From contig NW_002476347.1 in assembly GCF_000189635.1 (NCBI RefSeq), positions 79,832 to 143,831 of the forward strand: a stretch of 64,000 nt of DNA, read 5' to 3'. The notes beneath the pieces were generated by a model. That model searched no databases. It was not told where the DNA came from and worked only from the letters and a program-made list of their open reading frames with translations. This DNA is from Tetrahymena thermophila SB210. Its lineage: Eukaryota; Ciliophora; Oligohymenophorea; Hymenostomatida; Tetrahymenidae. A program made the position numbers and the translations under genes. Below are positions 42,849 through 64,000 of the stretch, one piece after another; positions within the stretch are counted from its first letter, which is position 1; each line of letters begins with the position of its first letter.

Positions 42849-42922
42849 GCCCGTGTAGCTCAGTTGGTTAGAGCGCGAGTCTCATAATCTCGAGGCCGAG
42901 GGTTCGATCCCCTCCGCAGGCA
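42849..42922 (+). tRNA. tRNA-Met (CAU), elongator, copy 1
   Basis: A 74-nt cloverleaf with discriminator A. Anticodon loop CTCATAA reads CAU, so Met. The anticodon arm with its T-T mismatch at 31-39 resembles yeast elongator tRNA-Met, and the acceptor differs from initiator type. Internal promoter boxes are visible: A box TAGCTCAGTTGG and B box GGTTCGATCCC. A T-run directly after it serves as Pol III terminator. Acceptor position 4 pairs C with A, an odd mismatch. Confidence 0.97.
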
Positions 42923-43085
42923 TTTTTTATTTTATTCCAAGGTGAAAATCAAACATAGCGAAAAATATTTCAAAATTTATTTAATTTCGTAAGATTGCTT
43001 GTGAACAAAAGAAAAGTTTTATTTTTTTCAATAAACAAATTCTATTAGTTGACCTAGTGTATTCCATTTTAGAATATCATAATTA

Positions 43086-43159
43086 GCCCGTGTAGCTCAG
43101 TTGGTTAGAGCGCGAGTCTCATAATCTCGAGGCCGAGGGTTCGATCCCCTCCGCAGGCA
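43086..43159 (+). tRNA. tRNA-Met (CAU), elongator, copy 2
   Basis: Identical by eye to copy 1 over all 74 nt, with its own T-run terminator and a diverged version of the same 5' flank. It starts 237 bases after copy 1. Confidence 0.97.
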
Positions 43160-43303
43160 TTTTTTTATTTTATTATAAACGAAGATAGAAAATTGAAAAA
43201 CATATTTTTAACTTATAATATTAAATACTATTTCAAAAAATGACTTTTTTACTCAAATTTTAAAAGTTATCCTAGAGAATTCTGCTTTAGATTCTCATAA
43301 TTA

Positions 43304-43377
43304 GCCCGTGTAGCTCAGTTGGTTAGAGCGCGAGTCTCATAATCTCGAGGCCGAGGGTTCGATCCCCTCCGCAGGCA
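43304..43377 (+). tRNA. tRNA-Met (CAU), elongator, copy 3
   Basis: Identical to copies 1 and 2; starts 218 bases after copy 2. The 5' flank CCTAGAGAATTCTGCTTTAG matches copy 1 closely. T-run terminator follows. Confidence 0.97.
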
Positions 43378-43537
43378 TTTTTTATTTTACTAAAATTGAG
43401 AATCGAATATATGAAATATAATTGCAATTTATTTAAAATATCATTAGATTGATAATAAACAAAAAAAGTTTTACTTTTAAAAATAAACATATTGTATTAG
43501 TTAACCTAGCATATTGCAATTTAGATTCTCATAATTA

Positions 43538-43611
43538 GCCCGTGTAGCTCAGTTGGTTAGAGCGCGAGTCTCATAATCTCGAGGCCGAGGGTTCGATCCC
43601 CTCCGCAGGCA
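43538..43611 (+). tRNA. tRNA-Met (CAU), elongator, copy 4
   Basis: Identical to the other three; starts 234 bases after copy 3. The 5' flank is the most diverged of the four. T-run terminator follows. Confidence 0.97.
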
Positions 43612-44289: not shown

Positions 44290-45465
44290 ATGGATATTTA
44301 AGTTAAGTAAGAATATGATGAGCATATACAAACATAATAAAATTATTTTCTATTTAACTTCAATGAAAAATAGTTTAATGATGTAAAGGATAAAGAACAA
44401 TTTTATATGGAGCTATACTAATAAATCTATTAATAAATTATTAATTATAAACTTAAAATTCATTTTAATTTACCTAAAGTAAATGAATACTAATCTGGTA
44501 TGTGTTTTGTACTCAAAAGGCCATCTAACTCTAGTTTAGGAAGAATAATTAACGGTATGAATGCCTCTAAATATTATAATTGCTAGAAAGGTTTAGTATG
44601 CTATATAGGCCAATTAGCTTATCTTGATGGTTATTTCAGATACAATAAGACCTTAGGGATTAGAGTAGTCAGATTTGCTAGCAAAAATCAATTATAACTA
44701 AACGAGGATATACTCAAATACATAGACTTTGTTCTAATTCATATATTTGTTAGAGATATATCTGATGAAAATCAATTAAAATAAAGTGCATTTAAAGATG
44801 CAAATAATTGTTCAAGGAAGGTTTAATCACTATAAAACTATGATTATAATGGATATATGGAAAAAGAGTCTTCTGATTCTGAAGAGAAAACGTTTAATCC
44901 ACGTTTGATAAAATATGAAAAATTAAACAATAATGCGAGATAATTAGTTAAATCATAGAGCTAAATGTACTTTGATGGGAGAGATATTTAATTAAAATTA
45001 AATGATGAAACATAAATACAGAGTAAATATGGATAAGAATAAAGACGAAAAATTATTTTAAAAAGTAATTAGATCAAGATAGTAAAAAAATAGTCAACAA
45101 TAGAATAATAGAAATAGAATTTTGAATTTCCTTCATAGAAGATCATCGTTAAATAATAAAATGAGAGGATAATTACAAATATTTAACAAAAACAAGAAAA
45201 TAGTTTATGCATGAATAGGGAATATAATTAATATTTGGGAGAAAATAACTAAATTTAATAGATGTTATTTTAACTATTCATATAAAACAATGATCTTTAA
45301 TAAAAATTAATAGAAAAAGAAATCTCACAAAAAAAGGGAGAATTGATCGAGCTAGAAGCAAAATTATAAAAGCTAGTAGAGGAAAAAGAAGAATATATCA
45401 GGTCTCCAAAGTTGCTTAACTTATATTAAATGTTATCTAGTGAACAAAAAATTTAATTTAGCTGA
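44290..45465 (+). CDS. Unrecognised family protein A1 (intact)
   Basis: Single-exon gene, 391 aa (1176 nt), from ATG 44290 to TGA 45463-45465. I do not recognise it. Visible parts: a short polar N-terminus; a domain at about residues 18-160 starting YFLFNFNEKQFND and containing SGMCFVLKRPSNSSL, IGQLAYLDGYF, TLGIRVVRF and YIDFVLIHIFVRD; a Gln/Asn/Ser-rich middle with an acidic patch; and a C-terminal amphipathic helix region with QLFIQNNDLQQKL and KLVEEKEEYI. The paralogue at 48004 shares both ends. The alternating beta pattern of the domain with a conserved helix after it could fit an OB-fold, but that is a guess. No signal peptide or membrane segment seen, so probably soluble. Confidence 0.75.
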
Positions 45466-46019
45466 TGTTTTACATCTTTATTGCTAGTTAAAACTAAATA
45501 TTTGAGATATTATTAATCTTTTTTGTTGTTAATATATTAAATTTATGTCTGTTGTTTATTTTTAAATGAATAATTAATTTTTATTCTTCAATTTATATAA
45601 AAAACAATATTTTTTAAATGGAATTATAATATTTAATCATGTTGTTTATTTTTGAAAATATTATCTTAAAATATTGTAATTAATTGTAATTTAAAATATT
45701 ATTATTTAGCTAATTTCTGATGTAAAGCTAACTAACTAATTTGATTTTTGATAAAATTTAACTTAATATGCCTGATAGTATAAAGATACTTTCATAACTA
45801 AGCTAAAATGTTATCCCTATTATTATAGCAAGGATTTTATTTTATAAGAATTCTTAAACATATCAAAAAGTAATTAAAACAAAAAAAAATTGATTAGCTA
45901 GAAATTAAACAAAAAAGTAGAAATGAAAATAAAATTTAGTGTAGAATAAGAGCACAGCAAAGAAAATCATAATAAGAATATTTATATTTATAATTTACAA
46001 AAACAATTTTTTATATAAA
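45466..46019. other. Intergenic
   Basis: About 550 AT-rich bases after family gene A1. No gene or motif seen. Confidence 0.55.
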
Positions 46020-46480
46020 CAAAGATATAGAAGCTTACAACATGATGATATTTCATAAGATTTATCAACTACTAATTAATCGGGTATTTACCATGTATGA
46101 TGGATTTCTAAAAAAGATAAATATGAAGCAGTGATATGCTTCGTAATTAAAAGTGAACCCTGTGTTGAGTTATCGATAATCATAAAGCTTGTAAGGTTTA
46201 TATCATATTAATAAAAGAATAATTAATAAGAAATAAGTTTCTTACAAAGGTCTATTAGCATATCTAGATCGCTATTTTGAATCTGTATATTGTTTAGGGA
46301 TTAGAGTATAGAACTTAGTATGTAAGAAACAGACTAAAGGAAGTTAACATTTCTTAAGTGTTTAGATATTACTTTAATCGATTGTTATCATAAGCACAAG
46401 TTTTTGAAGCATGTTTTAGTGATAAATCTTAAATTTATGATTTTAAAGAGTAAACTACATATAAGTTTAGTTATATGATT
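46020..46480 (+). pseudogene. Decayed family copy P1
   Basis: Family similarity is scattered over the three plus-strand frames. It includes AVICFVIKSEPC (matching GMCFVLKRPSN of gene A1) and KGLLAYLDRYFESVYCLGI (matching IGQLAYLDGYF and TLGIRVVRF). These pieces are in order but separated by frame changes and in-frame TGA, so no intact protein is possible. No intron with good borders restores it. Placed here by order of motifs; the limits are approximate. Confidence 0.55.
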
Positions 46481-46559
46481 CAGATAAAAATTTTTGTTTA
46501 CATCATCCTTCATTAAAATAAATAAAGTAATATAATGTAGAACAGGAAGTTAGTTGAAT

Positions 46560-47470
46560 TAACTATAAATTTAAGATCGGATTCTTAGTGTATAAGTATC
46601 CTAATAAAGATTATAATGAAGAGGATATGCGCTTAATTTTAAAAGACCATCAATCTCTATCCTAAGTAATATTATATATGGTATGAATGGAGCGACAGCG
46701 TACAAAGGAAAGTTTGTCAAATAGGCGAATTAGTGTATCTCGATGACCGTTTAAAGTCTGATAAGAAATTAGGAATCAGAGTTGTAAAATTTAAAAATTA
46801 AAAGTATTACTAGGAAAATGAATGTTCACAATATTTTAAATATATGCTAACTCACATATAAGAGAGATATTACATAAAAAACTAATTAAATAAAAAGGTA
46901 TACTAAATGATGGAATATGAAGATAAAGAGGACTCTGTATACATTATACCTTAGTAAGAATACATTATTTAAAATGAGCAACCTGTCAAAATAAATGTTT
47001 TCAATCAGCAGAATAATTTAAATTTTAAGAGGATTACAAGTCAGCAAAAGCAATTTATAAAAATGAAAAAAGTGTCTATGAAAAGCTTCTAAATTCATTT
47101 TTAAAATAAAAAAATTAGTAAAATTTTATTGGAGAATCAATTTAAGAAAAGCAATAGCAAAATTAATCCTACTAATTATAAATAATATTAAAGTAAAAAT
47201 AAGAGAATATGACTAAACATAATTAATTTAAGACTAACAGCTCTAATTTAAATATAAAAATTGAAAAGAAGCCAAACAAAGTAAATAATGATTAAATCAT
47301 TACATATCAATTGATTATCTAGAATAATGAAATCAAGTAATAATTATTGTAAAAATAAATTGAGTAAACGAAGAAATAATTACTAGATTAAGAATAAAAA
47401 TTAATGCAATTAAGATAAGGAATTGAAAACTTAACGAAACATCCAAATCAAATAAATTAAAAAGAATATC
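46560..47470 (+). pseudogene. Decayed family copy P2
   Basis: Second broken copy directly after P1. The domain is recognisable in two frames: GYALNFKRPS then IIYGMNG, followed after a frame change by VCQIGELVYLDDRLK and KKLGIRVVKFKN. A Gln/Asn-rich middle and a C-terminal helix segment (LIIQNNEIKQQLLQ) also match the intact members, with at least one more frame change between. It keeps the full architecture, so decay is probably fairly recent. Limits approximate. Confidence 0.6.
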
Positions 47471-48003
47471 TTTTAATTATTAAACTATATTTTTTTAAAC
47501 TGTTTTAATTATTTAATAAAACTAAATCTTATTTTTTTATTTGCTTCATTCAATCTAGCAAAATTAAATATTTTGCATATTATTTTAAAAGTATTTAATA
47601 AATTATTTTATGATATCATTTTATCTTTCTTAAATATGAGTTATAATGAATTTTATTTTTTCTATAAATATTTAAGAGATGCAAATTTTATTTATTAAAA
47701 AATTTTAAGATTACTTCTTTTAATTTTAATTCTATCAAAGGCTATTATGAAATTTAATTTTGTTATTAATCTGCTTAATCTTCTAAATTTTCTATGCATT
47801 TAATTAAAGAAAATATTATTAATTTTCATGTAAAAAGTGTCTTTATATTTTGATGTTGCGAATGAATATCTTGCTTGTTATATTTTTAATACAAAATATT
47901 AAATTTCAAAATAATTTATAATTTTTTGATTTTTTAAATTAATTAATTAGTTAAAAGTAGAAAAAAATAATAAAGAATCTTAATTAGCTAGCTATATTCT
48001 AAA
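47471..48003. other. Intergenic
   Basis: About 530 AT-rich bases before family gene A2. Nothing recognised; probably holds its promoter. Confidence 0.55.
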
Positions 48004-49170
48004 ATGAATAACAATATCATAATTAAGAAAGAATAAGTAGATCCAATAGAAGAATAATAAGACTATTTTCATTTAGAATTTAGTGAAAAATATTTTAATA
48101 GTCTAGAAAATAAAGAAAAATATTATTTGGATGTTTATAGCCGCATTTATGATTTGATATAGAGTAAAAAACTAAAGATGTATGATGATTTTCCAAAATA
48201 AGTGATATATCAATCAGGAGTTTGTTATGCGGTAAAAAGACAAGTTAATTCATCATTAGATAGAATTATTATTAATATGAGTGGGTCTAGATATTATAGG
48301 TGCGATAAAGGAAAAGTTTATAACATAGGTTCTCTGGTTTATCTTGATGGATTTTTTAAATTTGATAAAAAGCTTGGAATTAGAGTGGTCAGAGTTTTTA
48401 GTAAAAGCTAAAAGCAACTTAACTAAGAAGTCTAAAAATTTATAGATATCATTTTAGTACACATATATAATAGAGATCTAGAAAATGGAAACTACAAATA
48501 AAAAACCATAGATGAAGTTTATAGCAAATCAAAATAAAATTATTAGAATAATGAAGATTCAAATAGCATGATAGATGAAGATCAATCAGATATATATGAA
48601 TCAGAACCATATATGCCACCCTCTTAAATATAATAAAAACTAAACCAATAAGTATTATAAAAATCATTAAAAGAAAATTAAAATTAAGAAGAATTTGAAT
48701 ACATTGAACAACCTTAAAAAATAAAAGACAATAAAATAAACAAAGATGAGTCAGACCGCTTTAAATAGCTTTCTTTACAAAACTTGTAAGTAGACGTAAT
48801 AGCAAATATGCCTAAATAATAACTAAAACCAGAGTTAAAATAGCAATAACTTTAGTAATAAGGCAATATTAATTTTGAATATAATTTAGATAGCTAATTA
48901 AGTTTAAAAAGTGAAATAAAATTAAATATAGACGAAAAAAACTAAGTTCAATAAGCGCTTTATTTATTATACATGCAAAATAATGAACTTTAGTAAATAT
49001 TAACAAAAAGAGATATAGCATAAAAAAAGGCAGAGGTGGCGATGTTAGAATAAAAGTTAAATAAATTGGTTTAAGAAAAGGAATTATATACTTAATAACC
49101 ATAGTAATTAAATATAGCTTAAATTATATAAAATAATATAAAAAAAGAAGAGTATGATAACTAAAATTGA
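48004..49170 (+). CDS. Unrecognised family protein A2 (intact)
   Basis: Single-exon gene, 388 aa (1167 nt), ATG 48004 to TGA 49168-49170. Closest to the gene at 44290. The N-terminal domain (about residues 20-165) holds YFHLEFSEKYFNSLENKEKY, GVCYAVKRQVNSSLDRI, IGSLVYLDGFFKFDKKLG, IRVVRVFSK and FIDIILVHIYNRD. The middle is rich in Gln, Lys, Ser and Asp. The C-terminal helix has LYLLYMQNNELQQIL and KLNKLVQEKELY. Conserved hydrophobic strands separated by a variable loop suggest a small beta-barrel; I infer this only from pattern. No known catalytic motif, signal peptide or membrane helix seen. Function unknown. Confidence 0.77.
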
Positions 49171-50898
49171 TACAAGGAACATTTGCAATATATTTTATTA
49201 TGCAATTTTAGTAATTTTTATAGCAAAAAATTGTTTAACATTTGCTCGTCATATAATAGATAAGGGGAATTATTGCCGGTCAACCCATATTAATAACCAT
49301 AAAACCAAAAATTTAACGTAATTATTTACTTCATTTAAAAAGTTTAATTTTAAGGAGGTAGAATCTTTTTATGGTATCTCAAGTACTAATATTATTATTA
49401 AAATTGTATTGTTAATTAATACAAATGAGTATACTTAAATATCTAAAATTAAAATATTTATATTAAAAATAAAACTAAATAAAAAAATGTAAATTAAAAA
49501 ATTTTTTTGTTTGTAATTTATTTGTATTTAACTCAATTTCTTAATATTAAAAATTCTAAAATATTTTAAGATTAAAAAAATCAGATTAATAATAAATTGT
49601 CTATCTTTGGCTTTTATTTGATTAAATATTCATTAAATTGATCAGATAATTCTGATAAACTCAGTTTATTTTAAAATATTAAAAAAGTTCGCTAAAAAAT
49701 AAATCAAAATAATTAAATGTNNNNNNNNNNNNNNNNNNNNNNNNNNNNNNNNNNNNNNNNNNNNNNNNNNNNNNNNNNNNNNNNNNNNNNNNNNNNNNNN
49801 NNNNNNNNNNNNNNNNNNNNATCAAAATAATTAAATGTAAAATAGATTACTTGATATAAATTTTTACTAAGTATTTTATAAAAGCTATCAAGTCAACAAA
49901 AATCTGTTTTAAATAGCGTATTAAAAATATTAATTACAAAAATGAATGAATTTTTAATCCAAAAATATAAGATAAATTGTTAATTACCATAATTTATTTG
50001 TTATTAATGATCTTCAGAAAGCTATTTTTATCAAAACAAACATAAAATTTATAACTAAGTACATTTAAAAGTTAGAATAAATTTAATATATTGATACATA
50101 ACTAAATGCTATTATGTGTTTTTTTATATTAACATATATTTTTTCACATTCAGTATGCAACATATAATTGACATTATAGCTTAAAGATCTAATTAAGAAA
50201 ATAAAGATTAATAGTTTATTTATTATAAAACAATAAAAGATAAATAAGAATTTAAAACAGAAGCTAATAAATTTAATTTACTAAGTGGAATAAATAAAAT
50301 ATTTAATTTCAAAATAAATAGTCTCAAGTTAGCGTTAGGTATAGTTTCGTGCATTAAAATATTAAACTTTAATGAATAATGAATGAAGGGAGATGATATA
50401 TTTTAATTAAGAAAAGAGTAAAGATATTTATTAAATATATAGGAATATAGTTAAAAATAAGAAAAAATATCACTTTAATTTGAGAGTATTTTTGAATAGA
50501 CTATTTTCTTTAATATTTTTTGTTTTATTAAATTTTGATATTAAGAAGCAAATTCAAGCTTTCTACCTTTTTAATATTAATAAATTATTATGTTTAATTA
50601 TATAATTCAATCAGAATATTTTTTTTGTTTTTAATGGCAACTCCTTAATTTTTAACATTCAATATTTAATAGTTTAAAATGTTTATTTAAAAATTTATTT
50701 TACCCAACTTTTAATTGAAATGAAATTTATGTTTGATTTAAATTTTAAAAATAATTATCTTGATATTTTTATTAGAATAAGAATAATTATTTTAATTTTA
50801 TTTAAAATTTGAAATATTAAACAATTCTTATTCAATCAAGCTCAAAATATTTTCATTTTTTATTTTTTATATTTTTAATAATTAATTTTGTGTATATT
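49171..50898. other. Intergenic region with assembly gap
   Basis: About 1.6 kb of known sequence plus 100 N. AT-rich with no supported gene. Around 50280-50370 a short plus-strand stretch reads like an isolated LRR-type fragment (LGIVSCIKILNF), too short to call. Confidence 0.5.
49721..49820. other. Assembly gap, 100 N
   Basis: A run of exactly 100 N, the usual placeholder for a gap of unknown size. The 18 bases before it (49703-49720) and the 18 after it (49821-49838) are identical (atcaaaataattaaatgt), so the two contigs probably overlap and nothing may be missing. Confidence 0.95.
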
Positions 50899-53507
50899 TA
50901 CAATTTTTAAAATCTAAATTTAATAATTAATTCTAATTATTACTATTTATAATTCTATTATTTCATTATAAATAAATATCTAGTTGATAACAAATTGCTA
51001 TAAATAAAAGAGTTTTTATTTAATTTGAGACTCTAAATAAATACTTAGATTTATTTCTAATAAATAATTTATATATTTAAATTTTTTATCCAAAATTTTA
51101 GTTTAATTTAATGCTGAGTATTGAAATATTTTATTTTGAAATATTTAAAATATGGAATAAAAAATAGTTTCTTTTAGTTTGCCTAGAAGAAATTTATTTC
51201 TTATTTTCTTTTAGCAAGCAAAATATATTTAATTATATTTATTATGTAGTAAAAAATTTGTTCTAATTAATTGAAGGAAATTTAGAATTATACTTCAATT
51301 TAATAAAAAGAATTGTTTTGATAATCTATTCAATTAGCGAGAAAAGAGATAATTAGATAAAAGAGTTTTATCTCAAATAAATAAAAGACTTTTATTTTTG
51401 AGATATTTAATATTAATTTATTATAATTAAATAGCATCTACAACAACAATTGTTTATTATAAGACTTTTTACGCGACTCCTGATCATAAATATGATTATG
51501 AGAATAAAGCTACTAATGTTATAATAAAGATATATTCTTTTTTTGATTATAATTCATTTCATTATCAAATTAATTACCGCCAAATCAAAAAAATTATGGA
51601 AAATATTATATGATTTTTGCTTTGTTTTCTTTAAATATTAGAAAATCAAGTGTTTTTCTCTCTTTTTTAATATAAAGAATTATAAAGTCTAGTTCATCAA
51701 TAGAGATAATAAAAGTGGAAATAATACTTGATTGAATAAATAATTAATTAATAAAAAATTCTAACAAAAAAGAAGCAAAAAAACATACTTACAAAAAAAA
51801 GAAAAATTAAGAATGAATAAAGAAGCTTATAAATAATAACCAATATCTGAAAAACTGGCTTTTAAAAATATACATTTTGATGATGATAAAGAATTAGCTA
51901 ATTTCTACATTTCTATATTTTAAAAATGCGTTGAGAATATTTCTAATTAATAATTGTCTTTTTTAGAGGAATTTCCTTAATTAAACCAAATATAAGTCGA
52001 TCGTTGCTATGTTATGAAACTCTAATCAAATGATCTAATAAGAATAGCTAGAAAAGTATAGTTTCTATCTGTTGGTAAAAAATATTTTAATGCAGGCAAC
52101 TTTAAATACGTTGTTGGTAATTTAACATTCTAACAAAAGAACCTATAATGTAGAATAGTTAAAGTTAATGATTAAAGAAATTTAAGTGATGATTATGAAA
52201 ATCTTAGGGATTTTAAATTTGTTCATTTCTACCAAATAGATGACAAAAAAAACCCAAAATAAAGCATCAAAAGTACAATTAAATACTATTATAACAAATC
52301 CTAATAGTAAGAATCTGAAGAAGTATAAGATCGACCTACTTCGCAAAAATCTAGTATCAATAAAAGTTAAGTACAAGAATTGCATGAATCTGTAATTTAA
52401 GAAAAAAAATTAGAAAATTAAATTAATACGAATCTGAAGAAAGAAAACAGCTCTAATTTAATAGATGAAGATTCTGAGAGCGAAGATAGTAATGAAGCAG
52501 CAATTACAAATAATTAGAATTAAATTACAATAAATAATAAAAATGCAAATGATATTTAAAGTAATTATCAGCTTTAGTAGTAACATGGTTTGACAAATCC
52601 AAATCAAAAAGAAGATTAGTCAGCAATAATACAAAATCTTCTTTATTTGATCAAGCAAAAAGATATGTAGCTCTTAGATTAGTAATAAATAATCTTACAA
52701 CACTAAATGCAATAATTAAATATGTAAAGATAAAGACTATTATCTTTGGACGATATAAATAATTACAATCCTTTATAAATAGGCATTAATAGTGATCATT
52801 ATAAAAATAACCCAAATGCTAATAGCTTAAATAAATTAGATAATAAGTTTTAAAATAAATAAATAAAAGTATAAGATGATGATCAAACAGAAATAATTGA
52901 ATTAGAAGATGATTGAAAAGATAATAATATTTTATAAAATAAAATTATTTTCTTTCTTAAATTATATTAATTTAAATAAATTAAAAAAATAAATAAATTT
53001 GCTTTGCTTTTAATCAAAATAAAATTCTAACTAACTAAACTAATTATATTTCATTTATTAATATTTGTTTTTCTTTATTATATATAGATTAAGATCAACA
53101 TTTTTATTTGTATCATTTGTAAATTAAAAAATATATGTTGAATAAAAATTACCTTAAATTTAAAATGATATAAATGAACATTGATTGATACTCCTTTGAA
53201 CAATTAAAATAAATTATCAAATAAATTTAATACATTTTATCTTTAACTTAAAAAGGTGGTGATTAACTAAATTAGATAGATAATCATTTTTTGGTATTTG
53301 ATAAAAGTAAAATGACCTAATTTTTCTAACCTAAATAGTTAAGTCACATTTAATTAATTTTTACACTTTTTTATAATTTAATTATGATCATTAAGCTAAG
53401 CTTATAAATATTTTCCTTTAATTTGTATCTATTAATTAAGATATTAATTTATCAAAAAGTGAAAATAAGTTTGAAAGAATTTAAGAAATAATATTTAGAA
53501 CAAAAAA
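50899..53507 (+). repeat. Tandem duplication, unit A
   Basis: About 2.6 kb unit that contains one family gene (51813-52916) with long 5' and 3' flanks. It recurs as unit B at 53617-56368. Similarity starts near CAATTTTTAAAATC and ends at TTAAGAAATAATATTTAGAA plus an A-run in both units. Flanks and coding part are both clearly alike, with small insertions and deletions. Confidence 0.9.
51813..52916 (+). CDS. Unrecognised family protein B1 (intact)
   Basis: Single-exon gene, 367 aa (1104 nt), ATG 51813 to TGA 52914-52916. It is a distant relative of the genes at 44290 and 48004: RCYVMKLQSNDLIRIARK, YVVGNLTFQQ, LQCRIVKVND and DFKFVHFYQIDD fall at the places of the corresponding motifs there. 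The N-terminal part starts MNKEAYKQQPISEKLAF. The middle is Ser/Asn/Gln-rich with an acidic run (DEDSESEDSNE). The C-terminal third is a Gln-rich probable coiled coil, ending IIELEDD. Its tandem twin lies at 54600. No known fold, signal or membrane segment recognised; function unknown. Confidence 0.75.
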
Positions 53508-53533
53508 TGGGGGGTCACATCAGGGACTCATTC

Positions 53534-53564
53534 ATTTTTGAATGGATATTTTTCATTCAAAAAT
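53534..53564. repeat. Inverted repeat (hairpin) in duplication spacer
   Basis: Perfect 11-bp arms ATTTTTGAATG (53534-53544) and CATTCAAAAAT (53554-53564) around a 9-base loop. It lies in the 109-base spacer between the two duplicated units and directly after a G-run (TGGGGGGTCAC). It could be a terminator for the upstream gene or a remnant of the join. Confidence 0.6.
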
Positions 53565-53758
53565 TATTTTTCATAAAACAAAAAAAAAAAAAAAGTCAAA
53601 ATACATAAAAATACATACAATTTTTAAAATCGGAATAGATAATAATTAATTCTAATTATTACTATTTTTAATTCTGTTATTTCATAATAAATAAATATCT
53701 ACTTTTTTGATAACAAATTGTTATAAATAAAAGAGTTTTTACTTAAATTTGAGACACT

Positions 53759-53839
53759 AAATAAATACTTAGATTTATTTCTAATAAATAAATACTTAGA
53801 TTTATTTCTAATAAATAAATACTTTGATTTATTTCTAAT
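53759..53839. repeat. 27-bp minisatellite, three copies
   Basis: Three head-to-tail copies of a 27-bp unit with core ATACTTAGATTTATTTC; the third has one change (CTTTG for CTTAG). Unit A has a single copy at the matching place (about 51038-51066), so the expansion came after the duplication. Confidence 0.85.
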
Positions 53840-54129
53840 AAATAAATAATTTATAAATTTTAATTATTTATCCTACATTTTAGTTTGATTTAATGCTAAG
53901 TATTTAAATATTTTATTTTGAAATATTTAAAATATGGAATAAAAAATAGTTTCTTTTAGTTTGCCTATAAGAAATTTATTTCTTTTTTTCTTTACGCAAG
54001 CAAAATATATTTAATTATATTTATTATATAGTAAAACATTTGTTCTAATGAATTTAAGTAAATTAGGAATTCTACTTCAATTTAATAAAAAGACTTATTT
54101 TGTTAATAATTATACAATTTGGGAGATAG

Positions 54130-54157
54130 ATAAATAAATAAATAAATAAATAAATAA
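54130..54157. repeat. TAAA microsatellite
   Basis: About seven TAAA repeats. The matching part of unit A has no such run, so it expanded or arose after duplication. Confidence 0.8.
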
Positions 54158-54599
54158 AAAAGTTTTATCTCAAATAAAGAAAAGACAATTATTATTGAGA
54201 TATTTAATATTTATCTATTTTAATTAATTAGCATCTACAATAACAATTGTTCATTATAAGATTCTGATCATAAAAATAATTATGAATTAGAATAAAGCTG
54301 ATAATGTTATAATATAGATTTATTCTTTTTTTTAATTACAATTCATTTCATTATCAAATTACTTTCAAATCAAAAAATTATGGAAAATGTAATATGATTT
54401 TGCATTGTTTTCTTTAAAGAATAGAAAATTAAGTATTTTTCTGACTTTTTTAATATAAAGAATTGAAAAGTCTAGTTCATAAAGAGAGATATTAAAAGTG
54501 GTTTTTTTATTTGGTTTATAAATAATTAAATTCATAAAAAATTCTAACAAAAAAAAAGGAAGCAAAAAAACAAACTTAAAAAGAATAGAAAAATTAAGA

Positions 54600-55772
54600 A
54601 TGAATAAAGAAGCTTATAAATAATAAAGAATATCTGAAAAACTGCCTTTTTATAATATTCATTTCGATAATGAAAAAGAATTAGCTAAGTTCTACATTTC
54701 AATATTTTAAAAATGCGTTGAGAGTATTTCTAATAAATAATTGACTCTTTTAGAAGAATTTCCTAAATTAGACCAAATATAAGACAACTGTTGCTATGTT
54801 ATGAAGCTCTAATCAAATGATCTAATGAGAATAGCTAGAAAAGTAAAGTTTCTATCTTTTAGTAAAAAATATTTTAATGCAGACAACTTTAAATACGCTG
54901 TTTGTAATTTAAATTAATAACCTATGAATCTATAATGCAGGATAGTTAAAGTTAATGATTAAATAAATTTAAGTGATGATTATGAAAATCTTAGGGATTA
55001 TAAATTTGTTCATTTCTACCAAAAAAATGACAGAATAAACCAAAACTAAATCATCTAAAGTACAATTAAATACTAAGATAACAAACTCTAACAGTAAAAA
55101 TCTGAAGAGGTATAAGATCGACCTACTTCACTAAAATCTTGTACTAATTAAAGTTAAGTAGAAGAATTGCATGGATCTGTAATTTAAGAAAAAGCATTAG
55201 AAAATAAAATTAATAAGAATCTAAAGAAAGAAAACAGCTCTAATTTAATAGATGAAGATTCTGACAGCAAACATAGTAATGAAGCAGCAACTACAAATAA
55301 TTAGAATTAAATTACAATAAATAATAAAAATGCAAATGAGATTAAAATTAATTATCAGCTTTAGTAGTAACATGGTTTGCCAAATTAAAGTCAAAAAGAA
55401 GATTTGTTAGAACAAATAAAAAATCTTCATTCTGAGCTTAATCAACTAAAGATATAGCTCAATTTAAAAGATACATAGCTCGGTCAAAAAGATAAAGTGA
55501 GCAATCTAAAAGAATTATAGATCATAGAATACATAAAAGTAATCTATTAACTCTAATTTCAATTATTTGATATGTAAAGTTAAAAACTTATGTAAACTAT
55601 ATATAATAGTTAAAATCCTTAATAAATGGGTATTAATAATGACTAATATTTAAATAACCCAAATCAGTTAAATGCTAATAGCGTAAATAAATTAGATAAT
55701 AAGGTTTAACATTAATACATAAAAATAGAAGATGAAGATCAAACAGAAATAATTGAATTAGAAGATGATTGA
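54600..55772 (+). CDS. Unrecognised family protein B2 (intact)
   Basis: Single-exon gene, 390 aa (1173 nt), ATG 54600 to TGA 55770-55772; tandem twin of the gene at 51813. The N-terminal half is nearly the same (CCYVMKLQSNDLMRIARK, YFNADNFKYAV, DYENLRDYKFVHFYQ). The C-terminal coiled coil is about 20 residues longer and quite different (EQIKNLHSELNQLKIQLNLK, then LKELQIIEYIK), while the last residues (IIELEDD) match again. So the helical part has changed much faster than both ends. Reading frame fully open. Function unknown; same possible beta-domain plus coil layout as the rest of the family. Confidence 0.75.
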
Positions 55773-56365
55773 AAGGATAATAATAAATTAATAAAAATAA
55801 AATTATTTTCTTTCTTAAAATATATTAATTTAAATAAATTAAAAAATAAATAAGCTTGCTTCGCTTAATCAAATAAATTCTAACTGAATTAATTAATATT
55901 TCATTTAATAATATTTGCTTTTCTTTATTATATATAGATTAAGATCAACATTTATATATATATTATTTGTAAATTAAAAAAATATATGTTGAATAAAAAT
56001 TTCCTTAAATTTAAAATGATAAAAATGAACATTGATTGATTCATACTCCTTTTAAGAATGAAAATAAATTATCTAATAAATTTAATACATTTTATCTTTA
56101 ATTAAAAAAGGTGGTGATTAATTAAATTAGATTGATAATCATTTTTTGGTATTTGATAAAAGCAAAATGAGATAATTTTTCTAATCTAAAAAGTTAAGTA
56201 ACATTTTAATTCATTTTTACACTTTATTATTATTTAATTATGATCAAAAGCTAAGCTTAAAAATATTTTCTTTTAATTTTTATCTATTAATTAATATGTT
56301 AATTTATTAAAAATTGAAAATGAGATGATTATGAAAAAGTTTAAGAAATAATATTTAGAACAAAA

Positions 56366-56834
56366 AAACCATCTCTCTTAGTAATGTACAACTCATTAAT
56401 TTACGTCCTGCTATCCACAATATCAAACCATTATCAGTAGCCAAACCAATTATAGCCAACATTGCTAGAATTATTATTTACATTTTAATAAATTTTACTG
56501 ATGAATTCTAACTTTCTGATTTTATTTTATGAATTAAAACTAAATTATTTCATAAAAATAATAAAAGATTAGTTAAAAATATAATCATATGAAAATTAGA
56601 AGAACATAGCTGATCTAAAGTTTATTACTAGCAATCTGAATTGCTCTGAATCAAAAAATATTTTTTTTAACATAAATTTGTATTTATAGAGAAAATAATT
56701 ATCATTCTTCTTCTTAAAATAATCTAAAAATTATAAACAAAATCCTGAAATAATTGAACCAAAAGAAACTAAATAATTAAAACAAAATAAGTAAAAAAGT
56801 AAATTTTGTTGGAATACAATAAATATGAGATGAT
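56366..56834 (+). other. Possible gene fragment or long open stretch
   Basis: Plus-strand frame open for about 150 codons to TGA near 56832, with a hydrophobic start (MYNSLIYVLLSTI) then a polar, Lys/Gln-rich part. Base composition of the first 110 bases is less AT-rich than its surroundings and begins exactly where duplication unit B ends. On the minus strand the same 110 bases read GLATDNGLILW, faintly WD-repeat-like. Open frames this long are not rare when TGA is the only stop. Not called as a gene. Confidence 0.2.
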
Positions 56835-57246: not shown

Positions 57247-60200
57247 TCAAAATTAAGGGTTTTACCTATTAAAAATAGATTTTTATATCGGTGACAGGGC
57301 TTTTTTACTGTCAAACTATGCTAAATTTACTATATTTTGTATATTTTTATCTATAATTTCAGAATTAAGTTTAATTGGTATAAATTCTTTTGATTAAGGA
57401 CTATCTTTTTAGCTATGTTTGTTATTATTTAGGTCACTACCCTAAGAATACTAGCTCTCTTCTAGATTGTTGCGGTTTAAGGCAAAACTATTTACTCTAT
57501 TTCTTGTTCCTATTTTTTCATCTGAACCACTTCTATTTTTAGTATTTTATTTGCCTACATTAGGAGTTTCAAATCCATTTGATTTCTTCTTTTACAGTAT
57601 TTATTTTTTCTACAAGTACGATCCTCTTCTATTTTCTTTGATATTTTAATCATCTTTGCGTTATTTGTTTGCTTTTTATTTTTTTAAAGCTTTTATGAGT
57701 TTAGAAAATTATTTTCCAATAATTTTGTTAGCCTTTGCAATTACTCTCAGATAATTTCCTTTAGGGAAGTAATGCTAAAATTATTTTAATTCATCAAAAG
57801 ACATGATTGTGAATAGTGTTTCTAAATCGTTTTCATTTTACTAATAATTGGCACTTTCTGATTAGTTTTACAACTATAATTGCTGTAATTAAAGATTACT
57901 GCCTTGAAGGTTTTAAAATTAAGTAGACTAATTGCTAATAGGAACTATGTTTATAAGATTATTGTTATTCAGCATTTATTGGTCATAATTACTACTGCTA
58001 AGTTAAGGCAATAGCTGCAATTTTATATTTGAATACTGCTTTTAATATTAAGAGTGTGTATTTTTGATAGTATCATTACTTCCTTTCATAAGCGGAGTTC
58101 CCATCTCATTCATTTTGAAACCACTTTTCCCGACTCCTAAATAATTTTATCTGAATTGAGAAATAGAATTTGCCATGTTTACTCCATTTCCACTGTGTTT
58201 TCTTTAATTTAAGATATTTTACTGATCTATCAAATTCTTTCTCTGCAAGAAATTGAATTCTTCTTGAGATTCTATCTTATTTATCAAATTCATGTTGTGC
58301 AACTGCTATTTTTTTATGCTGATAGCTGATGTTGGTGATTGGTCTCCTTGTCTGCTTTTCTATTAGGAGCTAATACTTTCATTATTGCTTCTATTTAATT
58401 AGCTAGCAATCTTCGCCTTTTAGATAAAGTTTAAAACATTATTCTTGACAACATGTGAAGTTTATCTTGGAGATGGCATTGGGCTTAAGGGAGAATTCAC
58501 ATCTTGTTTCTAATTTTTTGCTCCAGGAAATAAGAAATTTGGGTTTCTTGCAGAAGGGGATAAATTCTATGTGTCTTATGTCGTCATGTTAGTTTTATTT
58601 TTCTTAAAGCTGGATTAAGAAGGAAGCTTTCCTTTTTATTTATCTTTAGAATGCATAGCTTTCTTTTTACCTTTATCATCGTGATCTCCGTAAGGAGTAG
58701 ACTCTTCAGATACTTAGCTATCTTTGTAATCCTTATTTGATTGAATATTTTTGTCATGATTAATATCCTCAAATTGAGCCTCATTCTAATGGAGATTAAT
58801 AAGGTTTTAACCAATTCTACTTATTTTTTTTCCATTTTTATTTAAATTTATAATTTGTTAATTACCTTAATTGTTAAAATATTTGCCATTTTCAGAGTTT
58901 TCTTAATTTTAAATTAAATGAATTAATTTTTAAGGCTGATGGCTTTATACCATAGAAATTCCTTATTTTCCAACTTAGTTATTTACACTTTTTGATGCAA
59001 ATATTCCTAAATTCTTAAATGATTAAGATCTAAGATTTTCAATTTTTTCTATCGATCTCCTTTTAATGCTAGGAGAGAATGTATTTTGAATTTCTGAGTG
59101 CTTGATTTCGTATTCTCCAAATCTATTTTGGCATGATTTTCTTTTATTTTTATCTGAATTAGGCATGATTTCATTTTAAATCATCTGCTCAGTTAGAGTA
59201 ATGTTTCTAATCATTTCAAGCCCGTTCTGAGAAGTTCTGCTTTTTCTTCTTTCTCTGCTCAATTGATCTTCTTTTCGTCTCTTAAGAGGACTTTGCTATT
59301 CTTAAGGTAATTTATTTTAATTTTCAGAAGCCTTTTAAAATAATTCATTAAAGTCTTTTGATTTGTTTGATTTTCTTCTTTTACTGTTAATATCTTAGTT
59401 AAAGCCATCTGCTATGTTCGAAAACGATATCCTTTTAGAGCTCTTTATTTCTGATTAGGAATTTGATATTAGAGTTTATGACCTTTAAGAGCTTTTTCTT
59501 TTCAAACCTTCTTCATTCAAACTATTAATTTTAACACTTTTTTCTTTTTTAATCTTCCTAGGATTGTTGCTGCTTTCTTAATTTTTTAAAGCTAATTCTT
59601 TGATGTTTGGTATTAAGTTTTGCTATTAATTTTATTTGCTAGAAATATTTTGTTGCTAACTATCCATTATTTCTCTAGGCTATTTCATTATCTAGCCTGT
59701 GTTTTTTGTGGTGCTTTTTTCTTCTTTTTCTATATTAAAATCATCAATTTAGTTTCTTGAATCTAATATTAAACGATCTTTTCCAGGTTCTTGCTTGCTA
59801 GATTTTTTACTTAGATCAAAATTATCTAAATCAGCTATGAATAAAAGCTGAGGAGATTATTCTTAATCAGAAAAGCAACCTATAGACATTTCTCTATCAT
59901 GCATTTATAGAGTTCCTTGTTTTTTTAATGTTTTAGGAGATAAGTTAGTAGCAATAGGTATTTTATTAATTGTTCTTATACTTCCTAAATCTGAGTTTGT
60001 CATTACTGTTAACTGCTTAAATCCAGCTCTTTTAATTATGTTAGCATCAGAGCTATTAAGATTTTCATTATTATTTTTACCTGTTATACTCTACTCCATC
60101 TTAATACTTCTGTTACTTTACTAATTACTATCATTCTTTTTTTGGATTATATTTGGCGATCTCTAGCATTCATCACGAGTCTCTTAACCAAGTGAATTAA

Positions 60201-63200
60201 GAATCTTATCAAACTTTCTAGTGTTTAATCCCGAAGAACCTTTTTCAGAAGTTATATTATTTTACGAAGGTAAAGATTCATCTTATTCTACAAGCTTAGA
60301 AAGGTGCATTTTGTTAAAAATACTAGTAATTTATCTCTTTCTTTATCTAACATGATCTTAATCTTCTTCGACTTCTTGATTTTAGTAGCTTTTTTGCATA
60401 GCGTACTAGCCTACATCTTGTATTTCAGTTGAGTTAACTATAGACATATTTAGTTCTTAATTCATTTATGATATCGTGTTATTCTTTTAAATTTAGTAGG
60501 ATGAATTCTACTCATTTTCTCCTTCCTCATTAATTACAGAATCGTATTTTTTTTTATTACTTTTTTTGCTATTTATACTCACACTATTATCTTCATCATA
60601 GTAAGTTTCAGTATCTTCCTCATCATTTTCATTGACACTATCTTCGCTGCTATTGTACTTTAAAGCATCTTCATCATATTCATCATCTTATGAAAAATCT
60701 TCGCCATAAAGTTCATCAAACATCAAATATTACTAATAATAATAATCCATAGTTTCTGTGTTTTAATTCCTCCATTTTTCTGCCTAATTATTTATTTTAT
60801 TAATGAAAATAAATTTAAAAATAAGGAATTTTTTAAAATATAAAAAATCTTACTGCTATATTTTATTCTTTTGAAGATGTGAAGTACCCAAAAGTGACTA
60901 TCCTCTTTCTATAGAATTTAGAATCTCTATGCTAATACAAATACTTTTTATTATCTTTTTTTATTATTATATATCTATCAGGCGAGTAATGAAAGTAATG
61001 GCAATGTTATATTTCATGATTGTAACTCTAGCAGCACTGACATTTCACTTCTAAAAACTCCTGGTTATTTTCAAATATAATAGCATCCTTAATATTGTTA
61101 AATTTCTCCATTTCCTAAGGCATATCTGAAATTAATTGCAAGAAATCAGATCTTCTGATCATTAACAGTTTTGAAAACTTAATTTAATTTTTTTAAAATT
61201 AATTTAATTAAATTGATTTGTAAATAAAACTTAATAAGTCTGTCTGAAATTTTTATTGAGAATTTAATTCAAAAAGTTATGATTAATTGCATTATTTACT
61301 TCTAAACTCCTAGCCATTTCTTTACGATCCTAGTTAGTAAAAAAACTCCATGCTCCGAAACATGCTCCAGGTCCTAAACTAACAATTTTTTTATAAATTT
61401 TTTCTCCTTCGTTGTTTTCTGAGTTATATTCTCGACAAATTTCAACCTTCCCTTTTTCTACAAAGTAAATAAACATATCATCATCTGACTATCCTTCAGA
61501 AAAGATAATTTAATTTGGTGTAGTATGTAGTATCTAAATGATGGGAATCATTTTAAGAATAATTGAGCTATTGAAGTTAGCACTGAAAATACCGTAATCC
61601 TTAAAAACTATTCTATTTGCTTCGACCATAAGTTTTTCACGCAAATTATCACTTAATGAATCAATAATTTTTTTTTCTAAGTCACTTTTATTTTGGTCTT
61701 ACTCTCTCCAGTAGTAATCTAAATATTCTCTAATCCTGTACTGCAAAGAGAAATTAATATTCTTATTGTCCATATAGTCATTAATGATATAGAAGAATTC
61801 TTTCATTTATCTATCTTATGAAAATAAATCAGAGAAAATTTAACCAATTTAACTGATTGTGTAAGCAAAAATAACACATGATATAAGCATAGTGCCAACA
61901 CTTGCAACTCTCTCAAAATTATTTGATGGAACAATATCGCCATACCCTACAGTGATCATAGTAACTGTAGAAAAATAATATGCAGCTATATATTAATTCG
62001 CCCATATATCATCTTTTTTAAAATTATTTCATAAATAAACCTTTAAAAAATAATTATTTTCTTAAATAAATAACTTGTTTTTTAATTATTCATTTTTTTG
62101 CATAAAATTTATTAATTCAGTAATTAGTGATTTTTATAATTTTCGATAATCTTTTTTAATTTTTTTTGAATAATTAATTTTGTTTTAAAATAAATAGAAT
62201 TCAATTTTAATAAAATTTAGGAAGTTAAAATAAATTAAGAAAATACCTTCCATGCCAATTTTTCGCATCCAATTATTTTGATTTAAGTGATATTCTTAGA
62301 GACCGATAAACAACCAAATGCATCCAAAAATATGGGAAAAAAACAAAATGTTAAGAATAAGCTTTATAAGAGATATAATATTAGAAGTTTTTGGAGTGAG
62401 ATGAAAGCTGTCTTCAAATTTTCTGAAAATCTTTTAAAAGTTCCTAAGTTTTACGAAGAAGAGCAGGACAAATACCTTTTCCACTTAAGAATCTTAGTTG
62501 CCTAACTCACTAATTAAAAGGGGAATTTAAGCTATTGCATCACTCCAGAAATAATATTTTATATAATAAATAAAAATCTTTTTTTTGTTGTTTACATTAA
62601 CTCCTTTTTCAAAATATCCTGTCACCATAGAAAAAAGAATATCAATTAGCATCATTAAGTGTAAAGTGTAACCTACATAAGGAGTAATGAGATCATGGAT
62701 AGAAACATTAATAGCAACATGTATAGGGATTATAAAAAAGTAAGTCATAAAAACAGTTCCAATTAATAAATCCCATACTAACTTAAATTTACTTGATGGC
62801 TCTATTACCGGAATATATTTTATTAACTTAACTAAGATTTAATACAATTTAAGATTTCTAATTAGATGGAGGAAGAAATATGTAGTATTGCTATTGTCAA
62901 TCGAATTAGCACTTAGATCATCTAAAATTTTAAAAAAGGGATTGCTGAATTGAGTCATAATGTTTTTGTAATGTTATGACTTTACAAAGAATCTTTTCAT
63001 TTCAACTGCTTGTTTCTTCAGTTTCACAAACCTTACCATTTTAGATAAATTAGATTCAACACTTTTTTCTGGAACTATGGTGCTTAACTTCTATAATCCA
63101 CCTTATTTGCTAAATATTGTTGGCAAAAAGGAAGAAAATGTCTTTGTCTTTGATTTTAAAGTTAGCTTCTCCATAAAACTTGGAATTGATCTAACTGATT

Positions 63201-63822
63201 GAGTATTGACTAAAATATTAGGGGTTTCTTCTTAAATTACATGATTACCTTATTTCTACTAATAAATATCTGAATCATTCTTTTAAATGAATGCTCTTGA
63301 AGTTTACCCTCCTTCTAGAATGAGCTTAGCGTCAATCATATGCTAAGTCTCTTCATTTTCTTTATTCAGAAATGTATTAGATGGCGATACCAAAAAATTT
63401 GAAGATTAATTTGAAATAGCTCCCTAAACCTAAACCTAAGCCTAAGCCTATCCTCCTTAAAGATTTTACTATTATTAAATGCTTAATCTTATTTTTCTTC
63501 CACTTTTAAAGTAATTGCTTTGCTGGTCTAAAGTAAATTCATGTCCCTCGCCATCTTATTTTATATTTTCAATCGGGGATAACTTTATTCTACCATGCTT
63601 TTCAGCTGGAGGATTCTTTTTATCAGAATTATTTTTTCCTTTATTAATACTTTTTATGCTTGGACTCATAACTGTAGGATTCTCATTTTTTATGGGTTAA
63701 TTAGTATTTAAATCCTTTTCCCTTTCTGTATTTTGCTAGGTTAGCAGCGTCTATATATTATCTTTATTTGTTGTGGTAAGTTGCCCTTACATACCAAGAA
63801 GTGAGGCATTTTCTGACAACAT
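57247..63822 (-). CDS. K+ channel with cNMP-binding-like domain, zinc knuckle and long tail
   Basis: Six-transmembrane cation channel of the HCN/EAG/CNG layout, 2049 aa. Exons in coding order: 62247-63822, 61300-62012, 60854-61177, 57247-60783 (6150 nt). A polar N-terminus of about 330 aa is followed by membrane helices from about residue 340 (LLIGTVFMTYFFIIPIHVAI) and an S4-like segment LLFVKLRNFQKIFRKFED (about 453). The pore STVTMITVGYGDIVP lies near residue 545; GYGD predicts K+ selectivity. The cNMP-binding-like domain (about 690-840) includes YFVEKGKVEICREY, LGPGACFGAWSFF and IRRSDFLQLI; the usual Glu of the phosphate cassette (FGE) is absent. A CCHC motif CQCCQSYNHEIQHC follows (codons 61001-61042), then HYSPDRYIIIKK. 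The last exon encodes 1178 residues of acidic, then Ser/Asn/Gln/Lys-rich low-complexity tail. Start is the first ATG after an in-frame TGA. It acts in the plasma or ciliary membrane. Confidence 0.93.
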
Positions 63823-64000
63823 TAAATTGTAAATTTTTTAACCTTCTTGTTTGTTTGGCTTGTATCTATCTTATTTTATAGACTAATTAATTACCTTTCA
63901 AATGTACAATACTTTATCAATAAACTAATTATTATAAAGTCAATTTAATTACTTTGCTAATAAGAAAAAATTTTTGAAAAAAAACATAAGTTATTTAACA
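63823..64000. promoter_or_regulatory. 5' region of channel gene
   Basis: The 178 bases upstream of the channel start on the minus strand. In-frame TGA lies about 75 bases before the ATG with no other ATG between. AT-rich, no specific promoter element recognised. A further upstream exon beyond the window cannot be excluded. Confidence 0.4.

Follow-up and report, generated by a model that had tools for sequence, protein, structure and literature searches.

A single-exon gene family of Tetrahymena thermophila with a common N-terminal domain and an excess of SUMO-acceptor-like motifs outside it

During Tetrahymena conjugation SUMO acts via the E3 ligase Ema2, and the SUMO-modified form of Spt6 is bound to chromatin; SUMO also acts in the regulation of DNA elimination (PMC10830130). 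Among DNA-binding folds, the topology of NAM, CG-1, Gti1/Pac2 and Ssr4_N is described as one helix plus five strands (PMC9252788), and residues W26, W75, H88, YY102/103 and Y132 of AtCAMTA3 are reported as needed for DNA binding (PMC10417383). Here we describe a family of protein-coding genes in T. thermophila SB210 that may touch on both subjects. Four of its genes lie in one window, by which we mean the whole analysed stretch of 64,000 nucleotides (contig NW_002476347.1, positions 79,832 to 143,831). The genome searched comprises 101.0 Mb in 445 contigs and the window has a G+C content of 24.0%, which fits the 84.9–116.1 Mb and 20–28% G+C given for Tetrahymena macronuclear genomes (PMC6564038). 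All reading was done with NCBI code 6 (ciliate).

The family holds at least six intact genes, here called A1, A2, B1, B2, C and D. A1, A2, B1 and B2 follow one another in tandem on the plus strand, as do two broken copies of type A between A1 and A2; the original prediction, which had placed four intact and two broken copies with a common domain pattern here, was confirmed by open reading frames (ORFs), alignments, Smith-Waterman comparison and tblastn. The four genes of the window have one exon each and are closed by TGA. Paralogs C (551 aa, contig G000:C398, E 5.1e-13) and D (231 aa, contig G000:C114, E 5.6e-5), which are dispersed in the genome, are single-exon as well. As all six intact members are of this kind, the lack of introns, already noted for the array, is a trait of the family so far as observed. 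Tryptophan is absent from all six proteins. Every intact ORF scores 0.14–0.26 bits per codon in its own frame (B1 0.175, B2 0.198) against −0.24 ± 0.05 for 900-nt intergenic windows, and the broken copies fall in between (−0.06 for copy 1, 0.08 for copy 2). Broken copy 1 has a single in-frame TGA at 46132. Upstream of 54600 the frame of B2 stays open, with an ATG at 53934, yet the B1 start aligns with 54600.

Homology was assessed by Smith-Waterman alignment of the 15 domain pairs with 300 shuffles per pair. Fourteen pairs beat all of their shuffles with z of at least 8.0 (A-B 11.8–13.9, A-C 24.9–26.0, A-D 12.4–15.8, B-C 8.0–12.6, B1-D 8.1, C-D 8.0), and the weakest pair, B2-D, reached z 6.3 with a best shuffle of 81 against a real score of 78. 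In tblastn searches of the window A and B, 24–27.5% identical, find each other with E values from 1.4e-8 to 5.3e-5. Since the z values stand far above the shuffles and plain tblastn agrees, we regard A and B as truly homologous. Their divergence, which had been thought so deep that only a residue pattern was left, is real but less extreme than that. Genome searches with A1, A2, B1, C, D and a hand-made consensus gave no further place outside the window at E 10; the counts are lower bounds, and further decayed copies may be missed, because the same searches did not report broken copy 1. Among the titles listed by literature searches none resembles a description of the family, which is not proof of absence. 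The dispersed paralogs, together with the SUMO-type motifs, the genomic duplication and the contrast in selection between A and B reported below, go beyond the original prediction.

The common N-terminal domain spans about 140 aa in all six proteins, and its alignments show the residue pattern first noted in the array. Pfam was searched with whole A1, A2, B1 and B2 at E 1 and with the A1, A2, B1, C and D domains and the consensus at E 10. No credible match to the domain was obtained, and the consensus matched 0 families at E 10; NCBIfam (consensus, A1, A2, B1, B2 and C searched) and PDB sequences gave no credible match either. The strongest weak line, DUF1088 on D with E 0.0029, stayed below its cut-off (17.8 against 27 bits). 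Weak lines in Pfam, NCBIfam and PDB differ from member to member and were taken as chance. Within these collections the original prediction of a real family with a shared N-terminal domain and no well-known relative is supported. Of the checks proposed at the outset, profile search was negative in Pfam, at shuffle level for NAC and slightly above it for CG-1 by hhalign (see below), and structure prediction was carried out on A2 and C with AlphaFold2, using six or seven family rows. Both models predict a long helix followed by five strands (strands of at least 3 residues counted), with an additional helix that separates strands 1 and 2 and a short one that precedes the last strand. In the A2 model the helices span residues 34–53 and 85–94 and the strands 73–78, 100–108, 111–118, 124–131 and 149–156; the best of five models has a predicted local distance difference test (pLDDT) of 75.3 and a predicted template modelling score (pTM) of 0.72, while the fifth reaches a pLDDT of only 46.9. 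The C model repeats this element order with pLDDT 82.4 and pTM 0.80. At a threshold of E 0.001 Foldseek gave no PDB match for either model and no BFVD match for the A2 model, whose best there was an uncharacterised 105-aa protein (4.4e-3). Flpp3 (6pny) recurs with both models at E 0.051 (A2, rank 2) and 0.32 (C, best), neither significant. A viral origin was considered and rejected, given no BFVD structure match at E 0.001 and no relative in a scan of viral contigs with the A1+A2 alignment.

The sequence outside the domain has a character of its own. Behind the domain it contains 24–31% Gln plus Asn and has fewer aromatic residues and cysteines than the part that bears the domain. The motif psi-K-x-E (psi, hydrophobic) is the SUMO acceptor consensus, its form followed by acidic residues is a stronger acceptor, and the inverted E-x-K-psi is also a SUMO motif. 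In the six proteins (2318 aa) 16 psi-K-x-E are present; local shuffling of the whole proteins gives 5.3 ± 2.2, and 0 of 1000 shuffles reach 16. All 16 are outside the folded domain (N-terminal leaders counted) and none inside, where 4.1 ± 1.9 would be expected outside (0 of 2000 shuffles). The excess persists when B1 is left out (15 vs 3.7) and when B1 and A1 are both left out (13 vs 2.7; 0 of 2000 shuffles each). It is also specific, with ten of 12 related patterns at chance, including psi-R-x-E, psi-K-x-D and non-psi K-x-E (15 vs 14.2). K-x-E as a whole is raised (0.004) because psi-K-x-E is contained in it, and E-x-K-psi is weakly raised (10 vs 5.1, 0.035). There is no enrichment among 13 control ORFs or exons, of which 12 come from the window and one is a fragment of the genome's CG-1 gene (6 vs 11.4), and a Q/N-rich neighbour ORF of 1165 aa has 2 psi-K-x-E vs 1.6. 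The size of the excess and these specificity controls make chance unlikely.

Moreover, psi-K-x-E, each time as I-K-x-E, stands in the last 20 residues of four of the six proteins, A2 (IKKEEYDNQN), B2 (IKIEDEDQTEIIELEDD), C (IKIEEEQQERIQLD) and D (IKFEALIKLIK), where 0.38 would be expected (0 of 5000 shuffles); in A2, B2 and C psi-K-x-E is followed by acids. A1 is without a C-terminal site, and A1 (VKQE) and A2 (IKKE) both carry one near the N-terminus. B1 has IKVQ where B2 has IKIE, just before a C-terminal TEIIELEDD that is identical in the two, and its IIELEDD resembles a SUMO-interacting motif (SIM). A search with PF11976 for the SUMO gene returned 67 matches, many of them tandem rows read as polyubiquitin arrays, and was not discriminating. 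A coiled coil in every member was also tried and dropped, since C was the one member with a convincing heptad test (0 of 200 shuffles).

The explanation that we favour, tentatively and without calling it probable, is that A1 to D are nuclear proteins regulated by SUMO. It was adopted because of the psi-K-x-E consensus, its acidic and SIM-like context, and the role of SUMO in Tetrahymena conjugation. In its favour also count the motif excess outside the domain, the C-terminal I-K-x-E of four members, the agreement of the two models on element order, the selection on the A1 and A2 proteins and the conserved frame of the B pair (see below). The N-terminal folded domain would have its ligand in the nucleus, be it DNA, RNA or a chromatin protein; the Gln/Asn-rich tail, probably disordered, would bear at least one SUMO acceptor site; and SUMO attachment would alter the choice of partner, the residence on chromatin or the clustering of the protein. 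Several points weigh against this. The single psi-K-x-E of B1 is not C-terminal, psi-K-x-D shows no excess (2 vs 3.7), SIM-like motifs are not clearly enriched family-wide (8 vs 4.9 ± 2.2), and basic matches resembling nuclear localization signals (NLS) are sparse, with none in A1, B1 and B2. In the heptad test B2 is a borderline case (0.03), and A1, A2, B1 and D do not exceed chance. The recurring weak PDB fold matches, Flpp3 (6pny) and AcrID1 (6exp), are not eukaryotic nuclear proteins, and the protein divergence of B1 and B2 runs at about the silent rate. The motif statistics are post hoc, since psi-K-x-E was spotted by eye before counting.

It is also conceivable, though we consider it unlikely, that the domain is a far-diverged member of the WRKY/GCM1 helix-plus-five-strand group (NAC, CG-1 of CAMTA, WOPR, Ssr4) and that the proteins are transcription regulators which bind DNA sequence-specifically, with or without SUMO control. 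The predicted element order of the A2 and C models is that of this clan subgroup, matching the NAM, CG-1, Gti1/Pac2 and Ssr4_N topology, and the first and fifth Foldseek matches of the A2 model in PDB are both structures of the NAC domain of the plant protein ORE1 (7xlj, E 0.037, probability 0.75, template modelling score 0.37/0.42 over 166 columns; 7xp3, a DNA complex, E 0.07). However, NAC is absent among the 50 PDB matches listed for the better model, C (best E 0.32). PF02365 (NAM) gave no match in the Pfam searches above, with ANAC019 as positive control (1.6e-47); genome searches with PF02365 and with Gti1/Pac2 (PF09729) had 0 matches, but the controls were equally silent. Against a six-row NAC profile hhalign scored 11.25, where shuffles scored 11.16 ± 1.9 and 69 of 150 reached it; with three rows, all from PDB, the NAC profile aligned over 15 columns at E 0.19, a value without shuffles. 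The NAC signature W-Y-F-F, G-Y-W-K-A-T-G, W-x-M-H-E-Y-R-L is absent from the family. NAC membership, prompted by the A2-model Foldseek result, was thus rejected on the shuffle-level profile score, the C model and the missing Pfam match. The resemblance to CG-1 is colinear by eye and best at the last strand (L-V-H-I-Y in the family, F-V-H-Y in CG-1), and a three-row CG-1 profile scored 16.27 by hhalign (E 0.065), which 9 of 200 column shuffles reached; the alignment is confident over 10 columns only. When the CG-1 of this ciliate was used by itself, the score was reached by 146 of 200 shuffles. Neither the family consensus nor the A1, A2, B1, C and D domains had a PF03859 (CG-1) match at E 10, and the genome search with PF03859 found only one gene, a true CG-1 (CAMTA-type) gene with introns on contig 65 (G000:C65:653182-653492, minus strand; E 4e-32, exons joined by hand), which served as positive control and means that CG-1 itself is available in this lineage. 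As the six proteins contain no tryptophan, counterparts of W26 and W75 of CG-1 are lacking, and the other positions are not confidently alignable. CG-1 membership was rejected too, with the weak profile signal and no Pfam match, and a distant NAC/CG-1 relation is kept as a lead, not as membership. The full combination, a DNA-binding NAC/CG-1-type fold outside green plants without its sequence hallmarks, a C-terminal SUMO switch and a B branch near the silent rate, seems to us quite improbable.

A stronger competitor, somewhat unlikely but to be taken seriously, makes the family an orphan, fast-evolving ciliate scaffold or structural family with no nuclear role, whose psi-K-x-E excess is a charged-helix habit of the tails. 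Q/N-rich tails are common in ciliates, NLS-like matches are sparse, no functional domain was found, and the weakly raised E-x-K-psi could signal a general charge pattern. Yet the excess needs a hydrophobic residue before K, and E rather than D; the long Q/N-rich neighbour does not show it; and the C-terminal motif recurs in four diverged members. That the cluster is mostly neutral debris of recent duplications, with B1 and B2 drifting and only A2 and C of importance, would suit the two broken copies and the divergence of the B pair, and we give it little credence. B1 and B2 occupy a tandem duplication of genomic DNA, about 2.5 kb, in which the upstream and downstream flanks are duplicated too (identity 86–92% in flanks, 87% in the coding region). 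Retro-copying, raised in the original prediction, is hence disfavoured as the route by which the array spread, and rejected for the B pair. The two proteins are 71% identical against 86% for DNA, their differences by codon position are 56/46/47, and nonsynonymous and synonymous rates (dN, dS) are 0.154 and 0.132 by NG86, 0.148 and 0.175 by YN00, and 0.116 and 0.057 by LWL85. By maximum likelihood, omega does not differ from 1 overall (0.89), in the domain (0.70) or in the tail (1.04). The flanks, however, have 21 indels over 1419 aligned bases, 1 of the 21 a multiple of three, whereas the coding region has 4 (63, 4, 1 and 9 bases) over 1100, with a net shift that keeps the frame; at the rate of the flanks 16 would be expected (P 3e-4). 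This deficit argues that selection has kept the frames of B1 and B2, which also retain codon usage and the identical C-terminus. The B branch may be diversifying or relaxed, and the data choose neither. A1 and A2 are an old pair under selection on protein sequence: silent sites are saturated (NG86 dN 0.50, dS 1.38) and omega = 1 is rejected (twice the log-likelihood difference, 117), the omega values themselves being meaningless because the fitted branch length is far beyond saturation.

Table 1. Positions of the family's features in the window (position 1 is its first letter)
Feature	Position	Strand	Remarks
Gene A1, 391 aa, single exon	44290..45465	+	coding score 0.141 bits/codon
A1 N-terminal domain	44341..44769	+	boundaries set by analyst; homology z 12.4-56.9 to A2, B1, B2, C, D
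A1 psi-K-x-E, VKQE, aa 5-8	44302..44313	+	
Broken A-type copy 1, domain remnant	45964..46356	+	matches A1 residues 14-142, E 1.1e-5
Broken A-type copy 2	46709..47457	+	domain piece 46709-46858, C-terminal piece 47239-47457, frames differ
Gene A2, 388 aa, single exon	48004..49170	+	
A2 N-terminal domain	48055..48477	+	boundaries set by analyst
A2 psi-K-x-E, IKKE, aa 7-10	48022..48033	+	position resembles that of A1 VKQE
A2 C-terminal IKKE, aa 379-382 of 388	49138..49149	+	
Gene B1, 367 aa, single exon	51813..52916	+	
B1 N-terminal domain	51840..52262	+	boundaries set by analyst
B1 C-terminal IIELEDD, SIM-like	52893..52913	+	
Gene B2, 390 aa, single exon	54600..55772	+	
B2 N-terminal domain	54627..55049	+	boundaries set by analyst
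B2 C-terminal IKIEDEDQTEIIELEDD	55719..55769	+	SUMO acceptor consensus, acidic run and SIM-like segment
B tandem duplication, first unit	50950..53500		ends approximate
B tandem duplication, second unit	53669..56367		ends approximate

The surroundings of the array are varied. Directly upstream are four tRNA-Met (CAT) genes in tandem (42849-43611, plus strand), with starts 218-237 bp apart, and a run of 100 N at 49721-49820, between A2 and B1, may mark an assembly gap. Further upstream are ABC transporter genes in tandem (848-21012, plus strand) with nucleotide-binding domains repeated in several copies, one piece matching ABC_tran in Pfam, and a dynein heavy chain gene in many frames on the minus strand at about 25-41 kb, two pieces of which match DHC_N1 and MT. 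On the downstream side (57247-63897, minus strand) follows an ion channel that combines a GYGD filter with a cyclic-nucleotide-binding domain; next to it, on the same strand, is a very long Q/N-rich ORF (>1100 aa). The contig ends were checked for telomeres; the left end is N and the right end is without C4A2/G4T2 repeat.

If the family is indeed made up of SUMO-regulated nuclear proteins, a ciliate domain of no known family would gain a testable function, and new candidate SUMO targets would be useful because SUMO acts in Tetrahymena conjugation and the regulation of DNA elimination (PMC10830130). Compact, with one exon per gene and predicted acceptor sites, the family is also easy to tag and mutate in a laboratory ciliate. 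Should the domain prove NAC- or CG-1-like, a DNA-binding superfamily would be extended past the reach of sequence detection.

Compared with known systems, the family meets each of them in part. Spt6 is a widely conserved transcription factor, whereas A1 to D have no relative in the collections searched. Smt3 modification, reported for Spt6 as a Tetrahymena SUMO target (PMC10830130), would be common to both if the motifs, from which it is predicted here, are read correctly. With plant NAC (NAM, PF02365) the family shares the predicted N-terminal helix and five strands and the top Foldseek match of one of the two models; it differs in having no profile similarity, no NAC signature and no NAC among the matches listed for the C model. 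CG-1 (PF03859) of CAMTA has the same helix-plus-five-strand order (PMC9252788), and V-H-Y in its last strand resembles the invariant H of the family's V/I-H-I/F/Y-Y/F; the family differs in having no PF03859 match, no tryptophan, and no ankyrin repeats or other CAMTA-type domain by Pfam. Finally, whereas the Tetrahymena families highlighted in PMC6564038 are intron-rich leucine-rich repeat (LRR) genes and ours, without LRR in Pfam, is single-exon, the A/B array resembles the rapidly evolving tandem families described there in consisting of tandem duplicates with a raised rate of protein substitution.

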